Below are positions 40,098 through 53,578 of a stretch of 53,806 nt of DNA, in pieces. How positions within the stretch are numbered: the stretch's first letter is position 1; every line of letters begins with the position of its first letter. Below the pieces are notes generated by a model that saw only the letters and a list, made by a program, of their open reading frames with translations, had not been told where the DNA came from and made no database searches. Source of the stretch: Candidatus Poribacteria bacterium (GTDB lineage: Bacteria; Poribacteria; WGA-4E; B28-G17); NCBI GenBank assembly GCA_021162805.1, contig JAGGXZ010000115.1:1-53806 (forward strand). The letters are read 5' to 3'. The translations under genes and the position numbers were made by a program.

Positions 40098-41363
40098 CTA
40101 ACGTGTGAAGCTCCGTGTTGATCCAGAGAAAAACTTTCTGACCACATCCTCCGCAGGCCCATCTTTGGGTGAAAATCCCCGTTCAGCCCAATCCCAAAAA
40201 TAGGCTCCCATGCCCAGCGGATACACCTCTTCGAAGAAAGCCTCGTAGCATCTAGCCTGTAGATCGGGATTGTCCGATTTACGCAGATACCAGTTTCCCG
40301 GATATTTTGCGGCGTAATCCCATCTTCCCCATCCGCCCTCTGTGAAGAGCAGGGGTTTTCCTATCTTATCCCGCCAGGACTTTATCGCCTCGACGTAGTT
40401 CAGCATCACACTCGATATGATCGCCGGCACCTTGTATCGGTGCCATGCCCTTTTCAGCGTCTCAAGTGATGGGTTCTTCTCATCGCTGAGGGGAAAGTAG
40501 AAATTCAATCCAACCCAATCTAGGGTATCGAGCCAATCAGGATACTCATTAAAGGTATCCTTAGCCACCTCCTTCAACACGCCCGGATCAAATTCCAGTT
40601 TGTAATCTCCGGCTAGGATCATACGTTTCATAACGTTGTCCTCGAGATTGAAGAGGGTCAGAAGCGAGATAAGCCTCCTTTTCTGATGATGCACCACCAC
40701 CCACCAGTCGAAAGCACATGTTATCGGGATATCAGATCGCTTTCGCAGATCGGATATAAGTCTCCTCCAATCTCTGGATCGACTGTACGTGCCACTCAGT
40801 TCATCCGCAATACAGATGGCGTCGAAGGGGAAAGTGTTGATGTAATAGATCAATATCTTAGTATAATTTCGGAACCATATCCGCCAATCCCTTTCGTTCC
40901 GCATATGAACCCTTCCGGGCCACATCGGATCATTCGCCTTCCCGTCAGGACTCACCACCCGCATCCCCGTTCGTTCAGGATGAATATGCGGCTTGAAGAG
41001 AACCTTCAAACCGACCTTGTGAGCGGTCTTAACGAAATGGGCGATATCCTCATCTCTGGGAAAGTGATGCCATAGATCAGGTCTGAAGATGGTTTTCAGA
41101 ACGGGATGTCGATATCGTCGGCCCATTGGGAGATATATTTGGGGATTATCCCATCTACTTTGCCAGAGAGCCACGTCAAGGCTGACCCAATTGCAGCCAA
41201 GGGAGGCTATCCTCCTGAGATCCCGTTCCACCTTAGCCGGATCATAATCTGAAAAGGCGACGAAATAGGCCATACCTTTGTGCTTCTCCGTCGATTCGGC
41301 CTGGATCGGGGCGATGAGCATGAGAATCAGCGGGAGAATCGACTTGAATGAGGCTTTTCTCAT
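40098..41363 (-). CDS. Secreted glycosidase-like TIM-barrel protein (GH113-like)
   Basis: A 421-residue protein with a signal peptide (RKASFKSILPLILMLIAPIQA). The barrel order fits GH113/GH5-clan enzymes: YDPAKVERDLRRIASLGCNWV, GLKVLFKPHIHPE, WRIWFRNYTKILIYYI, ICIADELSGTYS with a likely acid/base Glu near 188, LDWVGLNFYFPLSD, and KPLLFTEGGWGRWD with a likely nucleophile Glu near 340. These are pattern-based assignments; mannan or other beta-glycan would be the expected substrate for GH113, but this is inferred. Four bases after the lipoprotein gene. Confidence 0.75.
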   Translation of the reverse strand: MRKASFKSILPLILMLIAPIQAESTEKHKGMAYFVAFSDYDPAKVERDLRRIASLGCNWVSLDVALWQSRWDNPQIYLPMGRRYRHPVLKTIFRPDLWHHFPRDEDIAHFVKTAHKVGLKVLFKPHIHPERTGMRVVSPDGKANDPMWPGRVHMRNERDWRIWFRNYTKILIYYINTFPFDAICIADELSGTYSRSRDWRRLISDLRKRSDIPITCAFDWWVVVHHQKRRLISLLTLFNLEDNVMKRMILAGDYKLEFDPGVLKEVAKDTFNEYPDWLDTLDWVGLNFYFPLSDEKNPSLETLKRAWHRYKVPAIISSVMLNYVEAIKSWRDKIGKPLLFTEGGWGRWDYAAKYPGNWYLRKSDNPDLQARCYEAFFEEVYPLGMGAYFWDWAERGFSPKDGPAEDVVRKFFSGSTRSFTR

Positions 41364-41366
41364 GTA

Positions 41367-42398
41367 TCACTCCGTCCGTTTGGGTGGCTGAGCGTTGAAG
41401 GCGACATATCTTTCTCCAACCGGCTTAACGCTAGCGGGTTTCAATTTGCCCTTAAGGTAGTTAGAGTAAGATTCAAATGCTTCAACAGCCCTGACTGGAT
41501 CAGGATAGGCGATGGCGAACAGATATACCTCGGTTTTATTGCTGCCTATCTTATATTTGGCAGCGATCCCCTCCGTTTCCCCGCCGAGTTTAAGCACGTT
41601 CTCATCGGAGACGTAATGGATATTGTTAAGGGCCAGCTGCTGTCTGAAATACTGCTCGCTACCCTTGATTCTCCCCTCCTCCGGCAGCGATTTGAGGATC
41701 CAGGGTAGATTCCCCATCTCAGGTATTCTCCTCTCCATCACCCTTGCGAATCTCTGCATTGCCTCCTTGATCTCGGTCGCTATCTCGAAGGCCTGGATCT
41801 TGATAAAGAACCTGTCTTTCCAGAAATCCAGCGTCTCATCCGTGAGAATGGCCTCATTTCCGAATCTAGCGAAGGGGGCATTAGGGTATCTAAGTTGGCT
41901 GTAGATACCAAAGGCGTTTTGGGATGTGCCCATGTCGTAGACGTCTATGGTGATCAGCGAGTCGGTGGCGAGCTTGGGTTGGATGTATTCGGCCGTGACG
42001 ACCTCAACGAAGCCATAAGTGTGGTAAAGCTCCGCCCCACCGTCGATATACTTAAATAGATCCCTCCCGACGTATCTCTTGATCTTGCCCTCATATATCT
42101 TCCACCAAGGAACATCCCCGTCCTTCGGTATGATATCCATGGCGCTGACAGTGGGCTTATTCGCCTCCTTCGATCCAGAAGGTGAGATTTGAGCCGATCT
42201 AAAAGCGCTGATCACAAATGAAATCTCATTCCTAGCCGGTGAGATGAACCTACAATCCCAGACACCGACGAGAAACCTGCCGCTTTGGGCTAAAACGGTG
42301 TATTTCCCCTCAACCTCTCCTTCAGATCCCTTTTGACATCCCTGCAGGATAGCGAGTGATACGAGTATAGCGAGGGTCACTATAAACTTACGTTTCAT
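41367..42398 (-). CDS. DUF6599-like lipoprotein
   Basis: A 343-residue predicted lipoprotein; signal peptide MKRKFIVTLAILVSLAILQG ends at Cys in LQGC. The central domain with GGAELYHTYGFVEVVTAEY, DVYDMGTSQNAFGIYSQ and FARVMERRIPEM resembles DUF6599, a family of unknown function. The C-terminal half is another mixed domain. It starts within the hypC gene (overlap of 11 bases) and precedes the glycosidase-like gene by four bases, so all three are co-transcribed. Confidence 0.75.
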   Translation of the reverse strand: MKRKFIVTLAILVSLAILQGCQKGSEGEVEGKYTVLAQSGRFLVGVWDCRFISPARNEISFVISAFRSAQISPSGSKEANKPTVSAMDIIPKDGDVPWWKIYEGKIKRYVGRDLFKYIDGGAELYHTYGFVEVVTAEYIQPKLATDSLITIDVYDMGTSQNAFGIYSQLRYPNAPFARFGNEAILTDETLDFWKDRFFIKIQAFEIATEIKEAMQRFARVMERRIPEMGNLPWILKSLPEEGRIKGSEQYFRQQLALNNIHYVSDENVLKLGGETEGIAAKYKIGSNKTEVYLFAIAYPDPVRAVEAFESYSNYLKGKLKPASVKPVGERYVAFNAQPPKRTE

Positions 42399-47938: not shown

Positions 47939-48019
47939 TCGTTTCCCTGAAAAAGCCCCACCGTTTGACATGTCCGGCCCTTCCACATATGTCGTCCATA
48001 GCGGAGGTAAAAGCCAAGG

Positions 48020-51000
48020 ATGGGTTTGAGCTCGTTCGGGATAATCCTGATATATGCTATGCTGTCATCTGCGCCGGCTGATTCGCCGATACCCCTGGGG
48101 ATTCCAGTGGGGATGTTCAACGTCTACGCCTCCTCAGGCGGGAACCTCGGCCGTAGCGAGCCCGATCTGCTTGAGGTATTCTCGGGCACCCCGGATCTAC
48201 CCTATGAATGCATCAACATCGTCCAGCATTACTGGCCTTCCCAGGAATCCCTCCCGAAGGTCGACGGGGATCGATACCTTGAGTGGTGGAAGAGGTACAT
48301 CCAGGAGGCTTATGATCTGACCAATCAGAACGGCAGGGTGAGGCTCAGGGTATTGGTCGGCCCGCTCTATGCTCCCTTCCTTCAAAGGGGTGAAGGGTGG
48401 CTCGCTAACTTCATAGAGAAGCTGTGCGTTTTTGAGAAAGGAAGCCCGCTTGAGGGAAGCATAGCCGGATGGTATGTCGTTGAGGAGCCGATGGGAACGT
48501 CCCACAACTACGATCCCGATCTGGTCAACCGCATGATAGGGATCATAAGGGACTCGGAGAACAAGGCCGGCTCACCACATCATCAGATCTACATCACCGT
48601 GGCCGTCGAGGGGAAATATTACACCCCTCAGAGGCTTGTGGAGTTCTGCAAAAATGTCGACGTCATAATGCTGAGCTCGACCACATACCTCTGGTTCAAA
48701 CCCACACCCCAACCGGTATACTCCCCCAACTGGTGGGCGATACACTGGTCGACGATGCAGATCAGAAACGCCCTTCGACCGTACTTTCAATCCGAGGGAA
48801 GGGAGCTGCCGAAGATACACGTCATCCTCCAGGCATATGACACCATGGGTTACGGGCAGCCGACACATTGGGAGATGCGCCAACAGATCAACTATGCCTT
48901 GAGCTACGGTAGGGCTTTTACGGGGAGATCGCTTGTGGCCAATGATCCGCCCGCGGATGGGATATGGTTCTTCTGGTGGCCCGGGATAGCTAAAAAGCCG
49001 GAGGACGACTGGACGTACGGCAGAAGGATAGCCGAGGCGATCGAGTCGACCGTCGCCTCGGTCAGATCTCCGTCCCTACCCTCTCGGACAAGGCTCCTCC
49101 TGGATGAGAACACCCCCTTTAACCCGACCGATTCACCCATACCCTATCAGATCGCCCGAAGGGGAAACGTCAGGGTGGAGGTCCTGGACGCCAGCCGATC
49201 TCCCGTAGCAAGCTTCGAGATGGGGCTGCAGGTGGAGGGGGTGCTCTCGCCGTTCGGAGGGCCGATCTGGAATCCGGGATCGAGCCTGAGGCAGGGAAAT
49301 TACATCTTCAGGCTCTATCTTGATGACGTGATAGCGGATGAGAGAACGGTTCCCGTGAGATGGAGGCCGGAAGTGACTCTCCTGAGCCATAAAACGGGGA
49401 CTTGGTCAAAGGATCGGAAGCTCATCGTCAGGATCACCCCGCCTCCGCTCAAGGAGGGGCTGATGGGATACGCCTATCTGCTGGATGGCTCATCCTATAC
49501 CGTCCCGCCGACTGAGGTTAATCTGTCCAAAACGGCCCAAATCCTGAACGAGAACCTCGAAGACGGCATCTGGTATCTGCATATCAGATATGCCGATAAC
49601 TCGGGGAACTGGTCGGATACGTCCCATCTCGGGCCGATCATGATCGATTCGACCCCGCCACGGGTTGAGGAGATCCAAAGCTCGATCAAGCCCGGTGTAT
49701 GGAGCAGGAACGGAAAGCTCACGATCAAATTGAAGCCGGAGGACGAGACGAGCGGCGTGAGGGGAATAATCTGGGCCCTGGATCATCAACCCTCTGTGGC
49801 GGCGGTCGGGGGGAAAATGATCTCAGGTGAAGAGATATCGGTCGATCTGACCGACGGAAGGTGGTTTCTGCATCTGATCGCTCAGGACGAGGCGGGAAAC
49901 CGAAGCAAAATCACAAACCTTGGCCCGTTCCTCATAGATACCTCCCCTCCGCCCGCGCCGAGAATCTCATCCGCCTCTCATGAGCCGGGGAGGTGGTCGA
50001 ACAGAAGTTTTCTCTCCGCCTCGATCGATCCGGGGGAGGATCCCGGCGGTGGGATCGAGGGTATCTCCCTCCTGATAGACGACTCCCCGAAGGGGTTACC
50101 GGACGATAAGGTCGATCTCCACCCGGAGGAGGGTATCCTCAAAAATCTGGATGACGGGATCTGGTATCTGCATCTCAAATCGATCGACAGGGCTGGAAAT
50201 ATCTCGCCCACCCTGGATTACGGCCCGATCATGATCGACACGTCTCCGCCCACATCTCCGGTCATCTCATCGAGCACCCACAGGGAGCGCGAATGGTCGA
50301 GCTCAGGCGATGTCGTCCTAAACTATAAGGCCCAGGATGAGGAGAGCGGAGTTCAGACGTATCTCTATCTGATCATCCCTGAAGGCGGGAGGTTGGATTG
50401 GAATAAGGCGATGGAGACGAGATCGGAGGAGATGCGGTTGAAGCTGAAGGGTGGGAGATGGACCATCTACCTTAGGGCTCTGGATAAGGCGGGAAACAAA
50501 GGTGAGCCGAGCTCATATGAGGTCTGGATCGACACCACACCTCCGCCCGCGCCCCTCATCTTGTCGCCGACCTATCAAGAGGGCAGGTGGACGGGACGAA
50601 AGGATCTGCTGATATCGTGGAGCGATGAGGACATATCGGGTATATCCTCATATCTCTATCTTCTGGATTCAAAACCGGATTCCGAGCCGACAAAGCCTCT
50701 GGACGGTTCCGTCAACTTTATGAGATTTGAATCCCTGCCGGATGGCATCCATTATCTCCACCTGAAGGCGGTAAACGGCGCCGGACTCACATCTCCGACG
50801 GTTCACTACGAGATACGCATAGACTCCTCCGTCCCACCTCCTCCGACCGTTCGGGCGGATGTGAACGGCGATCTGATCTCCTTCAGGTGGAGCGTCGATC
50901 CCCCGCCGAGCGGAATCGCCGGATATAGTTTCCTCCTCGACGCCATCCCTCAGAGCATTCCCGATGAGAGGGTCAAGACGACCGAGTCATATCATCAGTT

Positions 51001-52636
51001 CCGGGGTATCGGCGACGGGGTCTGGTTCTTTCACGTCAGGGCCGTCAGCGGGTCCGGGATTTGGAGTGAGACGGCGCATAGCTCCGTCCTCGTGGACAGG
51101 ACGCCTCCCCGGATAACCATCACCCCATCAGAGGCGGGATCGTGGCATAGCGATCGCATAGCCTCCGTCTCCGGCGGGATTGAGGATGCACTTTCGGGTG
51201 TCGATCCGGATAGCTTCGAGTTCAGGCTCAGCGGCGGGGAATGGGTCAGGTTCAAAAACGATTCCGCCCAAAAAGGGATTTGGAGAGATGAGGACGAGAT
51301 CCCTCCCCTGCTTGATGAGGGCGTCACGTCTATCCAAGTGAGGGTCAGGGATAGGGCTGGCAACGTCGGCACGTCCGACCCCGTGAGCTTCATGGTCGAT
51401 CTCACCTCTCCCACGCTTTCACTGAGCAGCCCTACGCATCCGGATCAGAGCAAGTGGTACTCCTCCCCTCTCGTCCGGTTTCTCATAGGCGCTAGCGATA
51501 ACCTCTCCGGGGTGGCAGCCTACAGTTTCGTCCTCGACAGATCCTCTGAGACCATGCCTCCCAGAATCGACATGATGAGGGCGGATCGGAATCAACTCTC
51601 CTTTGATCTGCCGTCAGACGGAACCTGGTTTCTGCATCTGGCCGCCAGGGATGAGGCTGGAAACTGGAGCAAGCCGGCACATTACAGGATCAACGTCGAC
51701 TCCGCTCCGCCCCAGTGCAGGATAAGGGTTCTGAGGCCGAGTGTAAACTTTGCAAGCGGCGAGATCGACTTCCGCCCCGTCAAGGGCGATTCGCCTGAGC
51801 TCTATTTCGGACCCGCGAGGATCGAGCTTTCGCTCTCCGAGAGGCTTTCCGAAGGTCCAAAGCTCTTCCTCAGGAAAGGATCCGAGATGAGAGAGCTCGA
51901 ACTTTCCCAGTCCGATTCCGACGGGCTGATCTTCACATCGGCGATCTTCGTGGATATGAGCATGGATGAGGGTGAGTGGGAATTGGTGGTTCAGGGGAGG
52001 GATAAGGCGTCGAATCCGATCGGGAGGATCGATGGGGGAAGGCTTAGGATCTCACCGCACATCGACGGCCGACAGGGCGGGACGATCTTCTCGAAGGATC
52101 TCAGATCGGCCCTCGTCATACCGGGGGGCTCTTTCGAGGGTAGGGCGCGATTTGAGCTCACGCCCGCCCCCATCGGATATCGCCTGGGAGTCCTCGATCC
52201 CATCCAGCTTGAAAGGCCGTTGAGGCTGATCTTACCGCTGGGGGAGAGGATCAAAAGGAATCCGGCCGTGTTCTTCTACGACGGCCTTCACGCCCATCAG
52301 ATCGGCGGGAAGGTTGTGGGGAACAGTATCATCGTCGTCCCTGTGGACGGTCCTGGGGTGTTCTTCGTATCCCAGGCTCAGGGGGGACCTTTCCGCGCCT
52401 GGGCCGCTCCGAACCCGTTTACCTCATCGACATCCTTCTACGTCATCGGAGGGAACGGTAGCCCGATCATACGGATATTCACGATCAAAGGGCGTCTGAT
52501 CAGGACCCTGAAGGGAGAAGTGCTCAGATGGGACGGGAAGGATGAGGAGGGGGAGCCGGTCGAAAGCGGGCTCTACATCTTTCAGGTTCTGGATGGCGGG
52601 GAGATCGCAACGGGAACGGTGGTCTTCGTGAGATGA
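48020..52636 (+). CDS. Giant secreted protein: glycosidase-like domain, eight Ig-like repeats, FlgD-like C-terminus
   Basis: A 1538-residue exported protein. The signal peptide covers about residues 1-21 (LSSFGIILIYAMLSSAPA). Residues about 30-345 look like a TIM-barrel glycosidase-type domain (GWYVVEEPMGTSHNYD). An Ig-like spacer follows. Residues about 448-1232 contain eight repeats of about 90-100 residues, each with DGxWYLHxxxxDxAGNxS and xxIDTxPP. Then comes a beta-rich domain, and at the C-terminus AAPNPFTSSTSFYVI with WDGKDEEGEPVESGLYIFQV, the FlgD/T9SS-type sorting-like domain. Likely displayed on the cell surface; a binding or degradation target is unknown. Overlaps the PorV-like gene by four bases. 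Confidence 0.82.
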   Translation: MGLSSFGIILIYAMLSSAPADSPIPLGIPVGMFNVYASSGGNLGRSEPDLLEVFSGTPDLPYECINIVQHYWPSQESLPKVDGDRYLEWWKRYIQEAYDLTNQNGRVRLRVLVGPLYAPFLQRGEGWLANFIEKLCVFEKGSPLEGSIAGWYVVEEPMGTSHNYDPDLVNRMIGIIRDSENKAGSPHHQIYITVAVEGKYYTPQRLVEFCKNVDVIMLSSTTYLWFKPTPQPVYSPNWWAIHWSTMQIRNALRPYFQSEGRELPKIHVILQAYDTMGYGQPTHWEMRQQINYALSYGRAFTGRSLVANDPPADGIWFFWWPGIAKKPEDDWTYGRRIAEAIESTVASVRSPSLPSRTRLLLDENTPFNPTDSPIPYQIARRGNVRVEVLDASRSPVASFEMGLQVEGVLSPFGGPIWNPGSSLRQGNYIFRLYLDDVIADERTVPVRWRPEVTLLSHKTGTWSKDRKLIVRITPPPLKEGLMGYAYLLDGSSYTVPPTEVNLSKTAQILNENLEDGIWYLHIRYADNSGNWSDTSHLGPIMIDSTPPRVEEIQSSIKPGVWSRNGKLTIKLKPEDETSGVRGIIWALDHQPSVAAVGGKMISGEEISVDLTDGRWFLHLIAQDEAGNRSKITNLGPFLIDTSPPPAPRISSASHEPGRWSNRSFLSASIDPGEDPGGGIEGISLLIDDSPKGLPDDKVDLHPEEGILKNLDDGIWYLHLKSIDRAGNISPTLDYGPIMIDTSPPTSPVISSSTHREREWSSSGDVVLNYKAQDEESGVQTYLYLIIPEGGRLDWNKAMETRSEEMRLKLKGGRWTIYLRALDKAGNKGEPSSYEVWIDTTPPPAPLILSPTYQEGRWTGRKDLLISWSDEDISGISSYLYLLDSKPDSEPTKPLDGSVNFMRFESLPDGIHYLHLKAVNGAGLTSPTVHYEIRIDSSVPPPPTVRADVNGDLISFRWSVDPPPSGIAGYSFLLDAIPQSIPDERVKTTESYHQFRGIGDGVWFFHVRAVSGSGIWSETAHSSVLVDRTPPRITITPSEAGSWHSDRIASVSGGIEDALSGVDPDSFEFRLSGGEWVRFKNDSAQKGIWRDEDEIPPLLDEGVTSIQVRVRDRAGNVGTSDPVSFMVDLTSPTLSLSSPTHPDQSKWYSSPLVRFLIGASDNLSGVAAYSFVLDRSSETMPPRIDMMRADRNQLSFDLPSDGTWFLHLAARDEAGNWSKPAHYRINVDSAPPQCRIRVLRPSVNFASGEIDFRPVKGDSPELYFGPARIELSLSERLSEGPKLFLRKGSEMRELELSQSDSDGLIFTSAIFVDMSMDEGEWELVVQGRDKASNPIGRIDGGRLRISPHIDGRQGGTIFSKDLRSALVIPGGSFEGRARFELTPAPIGYRLGVLDPIQLERPLRLILPLGERIKRNPAVFFYDGLHAHQIGGKVVGNSIIVVPVDGPGVFFVSQAQGGPFRAWAAPNPFTSSTSFYVIGGNGSPIIRIFTIKGRLIRTLKGEVLRWDGKDEEGEPVESGLYIFQVLDGGEIATGTVVFVR

Positions 52637-53529
52637 AGGTTCTGTGGGTGATCCTGATTCCTCTCATCATGGTTTCCTTCGCCGAGGCAGCGTTCGAGGA
52701 TATAACGCTTTCGCCAAAGGCTCTGGCCATGGGCGAGACATCCTCCCCGTCCGCCGACAGCCTAAACTTCATGTGGAATCCATCTCTCATATCGAATGCC
52801 AGAGGTATGGAGGTGATGGCCTCTTATCTGGCACTTTATCCGGGGATCGAGCTGGGGTTGTATCCGGGCGAGAGGGAGAGGCTCGGCCATCATCTGATCG
52901 CTTGTGGTTTTCCCCTGGGAAGGGGTGGAGGGGTGGGATTGGGATGGCTTTCATTCAGATCGGCCCTCTATGTCGAAAACACGCTGAACCTCGCCTATGC
53001 GGAGAGGTTCATCAGGATATTAAGGCTTGGCTGCGCCGTCAGGTTTCTCAACAGATCCCTACGCCGGAACGAATATGCCGAGTCCAACGTCGATCTCCTC
53101 ACGTCAGGGTTTTCGAGAAACGCCCTGACGTTCGACGTCGGGTTCCTGATCGATTTGAAATCCCTGAAATTGGGGGCATCGATAACCGGAGTCTATCCCG
53201 CCGACATCGGATTCATATCGAGCGAGATCCTCCCCTCGACGACCAGGATCGGGATAGGGCGTTTCACAAAGAGTTATACGCTGCTGGGCGAGATGAGGTT
53301 CAGGGACGGTAAGAGGAAATTCGGGGTCGGGTTTGAGAGGAGATTACTTCGCGATGATTTCGCCCTTCGAATCGGCGTATCCGATGAGATGGCCGGGCTG
53401 GGATGGGGATACAGGTTCAGGTTTGCAGGTTATGTCATTGGATTCGACTATGCCTTCATATATCCGATATCTCAACTGAAGGGGACATACGGATCACATC
53501 TGTTCTCGATCGAACTCGCGATACAGTAG
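52633..53529 (+). CDS. PorV/PorQ-family outer-membrane beta-barrel protein
   Basis: A 298-residue exported protein; signal peptide KVLWVILIPLIMVSFAEA. The opening LSPKALAMGETSSPSADS and NFMWNPSLIS is the PorV/PorQ (UPF0164) hallmark, and the rest has the alternating pattern of beta strands (LGASITGVYPADIGFISS, RIGIGRFTKSYTLLGEMR). PorV assists T9SS export; here the upstream gene encodes a giant protein with a FlgD-like C-terminal domain, and the ATGA overlap implies coupled expression. A direct export role is an inference from known T9SS partners. Confidence 0.83.
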   Translation: MKVLWVILIPLIMVSFAEAAFEDITLSPKALAMGETSSPSADSLNFMWNPSLISNARGMEVMASYLALYPGIELGLYPGERERLGHHLIACGFPLGRGGGVGLGWLSFRSALYVENTLNLAYAERFIRILRLGCAVRFLNRSLRRNEYAESNVDLLTSGFSRNALTFDVGFLIDLKSLKLGASITGVYPADIGFISSEILPSTTRIGIGRFTKSYTLLGEMRFRDGKRKFGVGFERRLLRDDFALRIGVSDEMAGLGWGYRFRFAGYVIGFDYAFIYPISQLKGTYGSHLFSIELAIQ

Positions 53530-53530
53530 G

Positions 53531-53578
53531 GCGGGGGTTCATCCCCCGCCGCTTCACGGCGGCATATAAAATGCCGCC
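53531..53578. repeat. Tandem hairpins after the PorV-like gene
   Basis: GCGGGGG / CCCCCGC (53531-53537, 53543-53549) and GGCGGCAT / ATGCCGCC (53558-53565, 53571-53578). The first may terminate the operon. A relative of the 33031 palindrome follows at about 53590-53610. Confidence 0.6.

Follow-up and report, generated by a model that had tools for sequence, protein, structure and literature searches.

The window analysed here is an entire contig (C115; 53,806 nucleotides) of a Candidatus Poribacteria metagenome-assembled genome (4.35 Mb in 232 contigs) that carries two successive genes on the same strand: P0001, encoding a multi-domain surface protein with a C-terminal immunoglobulin (Ig)-like tail, and P0002, encoding a distant relative of the PorV outer-membrane barrels. 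Both open reading frames (ORFs) lie where the original prediction, made from the letters alone, had placed them, and they share the four bases ATGA, in which the start of P0002 overlaps the stop of P0001. We posit, with a probability of about one half, that P0001 is a type IX-like cargo and that P0002 is the PorV-family barrel most likely to collect or hold it. The larger result concerns the class as a whole, across which we find what appears, from sequence and fold comparisons, to be a SprA/PorU/PorV-type export machine resembling the type IX secretion system (T9SS) of the Bacteroidota.

The two genes and their domains

P0001 is a real gene, because a full-length orthologue exists in another poribacterial genome (G029). 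This 1780-residue protein (L254:6104-11446; head 46% identical) is the sole full-length orthologue found among 58 poribacterial genomes, our own included, that make up the class set used throughout. Judged from the translation, the N-terminal signal-like stretch is clearer in the orthologue than in P0001. Residues 450-1233 of P0001 form eight repeats, each 91-101 residues long, and these exceed both family cut-offs (Pfam Big_13, 93.2 bits against 27; NCBIfam OmpL47-type, 82.2 against 40), bearing out the description of an eight-repeat surface protein (Table 1). P0001 shares these repeats with OmpL47-type/Big_13 surface proteins and differs from them in having a head that resembles a TIM barrel and a tail like those of type IX cargo.

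The head was modelled by single-sequence AlphaFold2, at low confidence (pLDDT 52.6, pTM 0.60), as eight alternating strands and helices, a fold that may be TIM-barrel-like. Its 50 listed fold matches are mixed TIM-barrel proteins with a few glycosidases among them (chitinase 7xmh at rank 21, hyaluronidases 2atm and 1fcq, and Cel6A 4a05), and searches of Pfam and PDB sequences with P0001 and with a six-row head profile returned no glycoside hydrolase. The label "glycosidase-like" originally given to the head is not confirmed; the mixed fold matches neither show nor exclude a glycosidase. Two adjacent glutamates, E155 and E156, are invariant in 6/6 aligned heads and lie just past the fourth strand of the model; no active site is shown. 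Head homologues occur in 4/58 genomes, own included, and some head-like proteins of 483-512 residues (L060:10521-11972 on own contig C24; L255, L256 and L257) have neither repeats nor tail.

The FlgD-like tail that had been predicted is borne out by significant matches to FlgD_ig (21.6 bits, cut-off 27) and to the type A C-terminal domain (CTD) model TIGR04183, Por_Secre_tail (19.7 bits, cut-off 23), both under the curated cut-offs. The tail of the orthologue does reach the type A cut-off (25 bits) and scores 21.2 against the type B model TIGR04131 (cut-off 35); P0001 itself has 12 NCBIfam matches at E ≤ 1, none of them to TIGR04131.

P0002 matches the PorV family model NF033709 (PorV_fam) at 3.4e-7 and 30.1 bits, below the cut-off of 90, and is therefore called a distant relative and not filed as PorV. 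Its match to PF11751 (PorP_SprF; 0.0025, 17.8 bits) also falls below the cut-off (22.3). Searched by itself against solved structures, P0002 brings up no PorV chain; when 19 aligned PorV-type proteins, P0002 included, are made into a profile, the solved PorV chain 6h3i_F is found at 5.7e-24, ahead of FadL-type transporters and over positions 3-305 of the 305-position profile. The PorV/PorQ-type assignment thus holds in the form of a distant PorV-family barrel, recognized by profile.

Table 1. Features of the P0001-P0002 locus; coordinates are those of the window
Feature	Coordinates	Strand	Basis
Ribosome-binding-like GGAGG, 12 bases 5' of P0001 ATG	48003..48007	+	sequence reading
P0001, 1538 aa, multi-domain surface protein, putative cargo of type IX secretion	48020..52636	+	ORF; full-length orthologue in G029
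P0001 signal-peptide-like N terminus, residues ~1-21	48020..48082	+	hydrophobic core in translation
P0001 head, residues ~22-357, TIM-barrel-like (low-confidence model)	48083..49090	+	single-sequence AlphaFold2; 6-row alignment
P0001 head-to-repeats region, residues 358-449	49091..49366	+	position alone
P0001 repeat 1, residues 450-549, Big_13/OmpL47-type	49367..49666	+	
P0001 repeat 2, residues 550-646	49667..49957	+	
P0001 repeat 3, residues 647-746	49958..50257	+	
P0001 repeat 4, residues 747-844	50258..50551	+	
P0001 repeat 5, residues 845-941	50552..50842	+	
P0001 repeat 6, residues 942-1032	50843..51115	+	
P0001 repeat 7, residues 1033-1133, most diverged of the eight	51116..51418	+	
P0001 repeat 8, residues 1134-1233	51419..51718	+	
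P0001 repeats-to-tail region, residues 1234-1455, no separate family match (Pfam, NCBIfam)	51719..52384	+	
P0001 C-terminal tail, residues 1456-1538, Ig domain resembling FlgD and type IX CTDs, lacking the motif of the common class	52385..52633	+	
ATGA, four-base overlap of P0001 stop and P0002 start	52633..52636	+	
P0002, 298 aa, distant PorV-family outer-membrane barrel, signal-peptide-like start	52633..53529	+	NF033709; PorV profile; tree

SprA-, PorU- and PorV-type proteins across the class

A SprA-type translocon protein is present in nearly every genome of the class. The SprA_N model (PF14349) has a single match in the own genome, a 2010-residue protein (29.9 bits, cut-off 27) that also matches TIGR04189 at 1.8e-47 (161.5 bits, under the equivalog cut-off of 200), a model matched by 11/11 scanned poribacterial SprA homologues. 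Homologues occur in 57/58 genomes, own included, the sole miss being G053, which is 81% complete. When named genomes were scanned with a SprA alignment, the best 80 of 169 confirmed stretches represented 68 distinct loci, and all 68 belong to Candidatus or uncultured Poribacteria. PDB sequence searches with the poribacterial SprA found no solved chain, and we therefore turned to a fold search with a predicted model: a 1095-residue part of the homologue from the sister genome B28_G17 (L131), modelled by AlphaFold2 from an alignment with 39 further rows of named Poribacteria; the mean pLDDT was 60.6 and the pTM 0.39. Its first four PDB fold matches were 8gl6_A, 8gl8_A, 6h3i_A and 6h3j_A, at E-values of 4.6e-24 to 6.7e-20, and the fifth reached only 1.3e-4. 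Chain A of these type 9 translocon entries, one of whose titles names SprA, we take to be SprA. At 0.33-0.37 of the query the TM-scores are low, which is what a partial, loosely arranged model would be expected to give. Gly/Tyr-rich stretches were seen in the SprA homologue of the own genome (L059:12887-18919, contig C183) and in its relatives, including L315 and L316 of G025.

PorU-type proteins are widespread too, with a best match of E ≤ 2.1e-97 to a PorU query in each of the 58 genomes. The own genome encodes five such Peptidase C25 proteins; the one on contig C28 matches NF033707 at 1e-108 (364.5 bits, under the cut-off of 420) and solved PorU at 4.2e-25. The columns of its His878 and Cys912 hold His and Cys in 34/34 rows (5 own, 29 relatives), and these positions align with the catalytic His and Cys of gingipain. 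In many genomes of genus g10, PorU and SprA share a contig and lie some 24-40 kb apart; in the 40 kb of G025 that hold both, no further tail or PorV-type gene was found beyond PorU and its PorV-type neighbour.

PorV-type matches were obtained in 58/58 genomes. The PorV_fam search of the own genome gave 16 matches in 15 genes, and a further gene on contig C232, found with P0002 as query, brings the family to 16. The NF033709 cut-off is passed by 7/15, six directly and that on C182 together with its in-frame neighbours; the five PorV-type proteins compared with the PorV equivalog NF033710 all fall short of its cut-off. One member of the family (L056:8189-9817, own contig C230) is a 542-residue protein with a lytic transglycosylase SLT domain (PF01464, 1e-31).

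Tails, too, are numerous. A PF18962 search of the own genome gave 33 matches at E ≤ 1e-3, part of them above the cut-off and the P0001 tail not listed among them, and the genome's own tail profile, which includes the P0001 tail, gave 75. A profile of 19 own-genome tails matches FlgD (1.1e-10), PorU (6.3e-10) and 5m11 (1.3e-7), which we take to be PorZ, among solved chains. The search proposed with the original prediction, for other T9SS components and for proteins with the same tail, thus met a SprA-type protein, PorU-type proteins, a PorV family of 16 genes and 75 matches to the tail profile, and not a genome devoid of T9SS genes whose tails are unlike sorting signals.

Barrel genes beside tail genes

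PorV-type genes and tail genes lie side by side non-randomly in the own genome. An immediate tail neighbour on the same strand was found for 7/16 PorV-type genes and for 19/260 other ORFs of the same regions (Fisher p 1.9e-4), "genes" in these counts being long ORFs (≥100 aa) chosen greedily and not predicted genes; the background of 19/260 is inflated, and the comparison conservative, because the regions were picked for holding PorV-type, tail or head-like genes. With strand ignored and 3300-4200 genes assumed, the binomial probability is 3.2e-6 to 6.4e-7. The tail gene comes first and the PorV-type gene second on contigs C115, C167, C28, C58, C63 and C166, in reverse order on C224, and the gaps between them range from -16 to 71 bases. 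Rows of the tree show some of these arrangements again: the C224 type, PorV-type gene before tail gene, is kept in 5/6 rows of its clade, and for the C232 type a tail gene adjoins or lies one gene off in 6/10 rows. A response-regulator gene separates the tail gene from the PorV-type gene on C232 (L261:7975-11495; the tail gene is F5/8-type in the own genome), as in L210 (G001:C91). On C166, the tail gene encodes a 1512-residue protein with two-component-regulator propeller repeats (L058:8072-14628), and the PorV-type protein that follows has 667 residues, with a long extra C-terminal part.

C25 proteins show the same habit. In the own genome, 2/5 are followed by a PorV-type gene (C28 and C58), after only 4 bases in the case of the C28 PorU-type gene, and so are 8 of the 10 readable PorU loci (of 29) in relatives; PorU-bearing rows entered the tree by selection for their PorV neighbour. 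This arrangement is another likeness to the Bacteroidota, since porU and porV are neighbours in Porphyromonas.

Tails beside barrels also differ in sequence from most other tails. Many own-genome tails form one uniform class with a PNPFNPETWIPF-like sequence, and its W-[ILV]-P-[FY] motif is found in 0/8 PorV-associated tails (the seven adjoining PorV-type genes and that of C232) as against 40/60 other full-length tails (p 4.2e-4), or 39/58 when the tails of C5 and C42 are removed (p 3.9e-4). This comparison draws on 74 of the 75 tail matches, with C197:6716-6814 left out and six fragments set aside; a looser motif, tried first on 72 tails with fragments included, was found in 1/8 PorV-associated tails (that of C166) and 41/64 others (p 0.0076). 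The division suggests a common signal read by a shared PorV and individual signals borne by cargo encoded beside individual barrels.

Elsewhere in the window, the minus strand encodes a GH113-family protein (PF22612) next to a DUF6599 protein (40098-42398), the stretch just upstream of P0001 (47306-47938) encodes a coiled-coil-like protein whose internal repeats (FEATDERFRAVLQEISALRQ-like) are nearly identical, and a G/C-rich inverted repeat, seen by eye, immediately follows the P0002 stop (53530-53550).

P0001 and P0002 as a proposed cargo and carrier

We posit that P0001 and P0002 would both reach the periplasm via Sec and that P0002 would be inserted in the outer membrane. An SprA-type translocon would thread P0001 through, and a PorV-type barrel would draw its Ig-like tail out laterally; the repeats would keep the head off the surface, and P0001 could be anchored (i) by the barrel itself, or (ii) after a PorU-type sortase trims the tail. 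P0001 would thus be secreted, P0002 would probably serve it in preference to the other 15 PorV-type proteins, and its part could be that of a shuttle or of an anchor.

Several observations weigh against this reading. The orthologue in G029 overlaps, likewise by four bases, a TLC/MFS-type transporter gene (L254:11443-12696, 417 aa), with no PorV-type gene there, so the four-base overlap at our locus is not special; P0002 relatives are present in G029, on contigs other than that of the P0001 orthologue. The top-scoring relatives of P0002 (G029:C80, G005:C577 and G004:C149) do not lie beside tail genes, nor does G005:C201, with which P0002 groups in the tree on long branches (support 97/91) and apart from that trio. 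Across the eight own PorV-associated pairs, tail distances and barrel distances are not significantly correlated (r 0.25; 4876 of 40320 permutations as high). None of P0002, the P0001 tail, SprA and PorU reaches the curated cut-off of its NCBIfam T9SS model, and SprA draws the blank among solved sequences described above. Unrelated chains, C5a peptidase and NHL-repeat proteins among them, are matched by the 19-tail profile as well, and 20/60 tails that have no PorV-type neighbour lack the strict common motif as well. GldM and GldN were found in 0/58 genomes each, a result that does not show absence because no positive-control genome matched either. Three ideas were discarded: that the neighbour of the orthologue is a diverged PorV (it is a TLC/MFS-type transporter), that P0001 and P0002 form a conserved two-gene unit, which the transporter contradicts, and that tails and barrels co-vary, for which the correlation fell short.

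This evidence would also fit a cell in which a shared PorV, such as the C178 or C190 protein (neither encoded beside a tail gene), serves P0001 as its type IX cargo, while P0002 is an ordinary PorV/FadL-family protein that merely shares its transcript. The orthologue without an adjoining PorV-type gene, the position of P0002's nearest relatives away from tail genes and the absence of a significant distance correlation all point this way, as do PorV-family proteins that do not adjoin tail genes and whose scores against the PorV family model are 184.5 and 181.2 bits. This account is a real possibility that we hold tentatively; against it, an adjoining tail gene is far commoner for PorV-type genes than for others, and none of the eight PorV-associated tails, that of P0001 included, belongs to the common motif class. 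The original proposal of a dedicated cargo and export partner therefore survives in part: T9SS genes are present and PorV-type genes sit preferentially beside tail genes, but the neighbour of the orthologue, the relatives of P0002 and the lack of a significant distance correlation do not single out this pair. The pairing habit is strong; the particular P0001-P0002 partnership is only plausible.

Within the cargo-and-carrier reading, P0002 could be a surface anchor like the PorP/SprF-like proteins and not a shuttle, with P0001 remaining attached to it once out of SprA, a sub-case whose odds overlap those of the whole and are not to be added to them. P0001 does resemble a stalked surface protein, P0002 has its weak match to PF11751, and type B cargo of Bacteroidota occurs bound to PorP/SprF-like barrels, according to PMC9143113. 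We nonetheless consider an anchor of this kind unlikely, as P0002 is closer by profile to the PorV family and the tail is more type A- than type B-like, to judge by its own NCBIfam matches and by the two scores of the orthologue's tail. Far less probable still is that the FlgD-like tail is a mere structural Ig domain unconnected with type IX export and that the poribacterial SprA-, PorU- and PorV-type proteins act otherwise. In favour of this, the match of the tail profile to FlgD is no weaker than that to PorU, and the motor genes GldM and GldN went undetected (in searches that had no positive control); against this stand the class-wide occurrence of SprA- and PorU-type proteins, the PorV-type matches in every genome and the PorV-type genes that often follow those of tailed PorU-type proteins.

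The poribacterial proteins resemble the Bacteroidota T9SS in their SprA-fold translocon, PorU-type His/Cys pair, PorV-family barrels and Ig-like C-terminal tails; they differ in scoring below the NCBIfam equivalog cut-offs, in their undetected GldM/GldN and, in the own genome, in a PorV family of 16, several of whose genes stand next to single tail genes. A close parallel to such pairs comes from Flavobacterium johnsoniae, in which, as PMC12618676 describes, the PorP/SprF-like shuttles cognate to type B tails are in many cases encoded by the next gene downstream, and type A tails are all recognized by PorV. As in that case, the cargo gene directly precedes the barrel gene and a genome holds several pairs; here, in contrast, the barrel is PorV-type, the tail is type A/FlgD-like and any specificity within the pairs is putative. 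P0001-P0002 is not a type B CTD with a PorP/SprF partner, TIGR04131 being missing from one and PF11751 below its cut-off in the other. It is conceivable, if rather improbable, that Poribacteria run a T9SS that has no recognizable GldM/GldN motor and whose expanded PorV family supplies single cargo proteins with private shuttles for their diverged type A-like tails, one PorV being shared by the many proteins with the common tail and P0001-P0002 being one of the private pairs. If private PorV-tail pairs do exist, the specificity of signal and shuttle could be tested on some eight natural pairs in one genome, and they would constitute a second, independent route to cargo-specific shuttles beside that of type B tails.

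A 2016 survey confined the T9SS to Bacteroidetes (PMC4793230), and further FCB phyla with the system have been named since (PMC11285876); Poribacteria, placed by NCBI taxonomy among candidate phyla, incertae sedis, lie outside the phyla for which these papers report the system. Single-cell genomes had revealed TIGR04183 tails in Poribacteria in 2014 and no Por structural genes, the secretion pathway being left open (PMC3909097); among open-licence papers we found no later report of SprA/PorU/PorV-type genes in the phylum. The class-wide SprA-type and PorU-type proteins and PorV family are therefore a candidate machine for that pathway and, since Poribacteria are prominent sponge symbionts according to the same source (PMC3909097), also a candidate route outward for their large repeat proteins.

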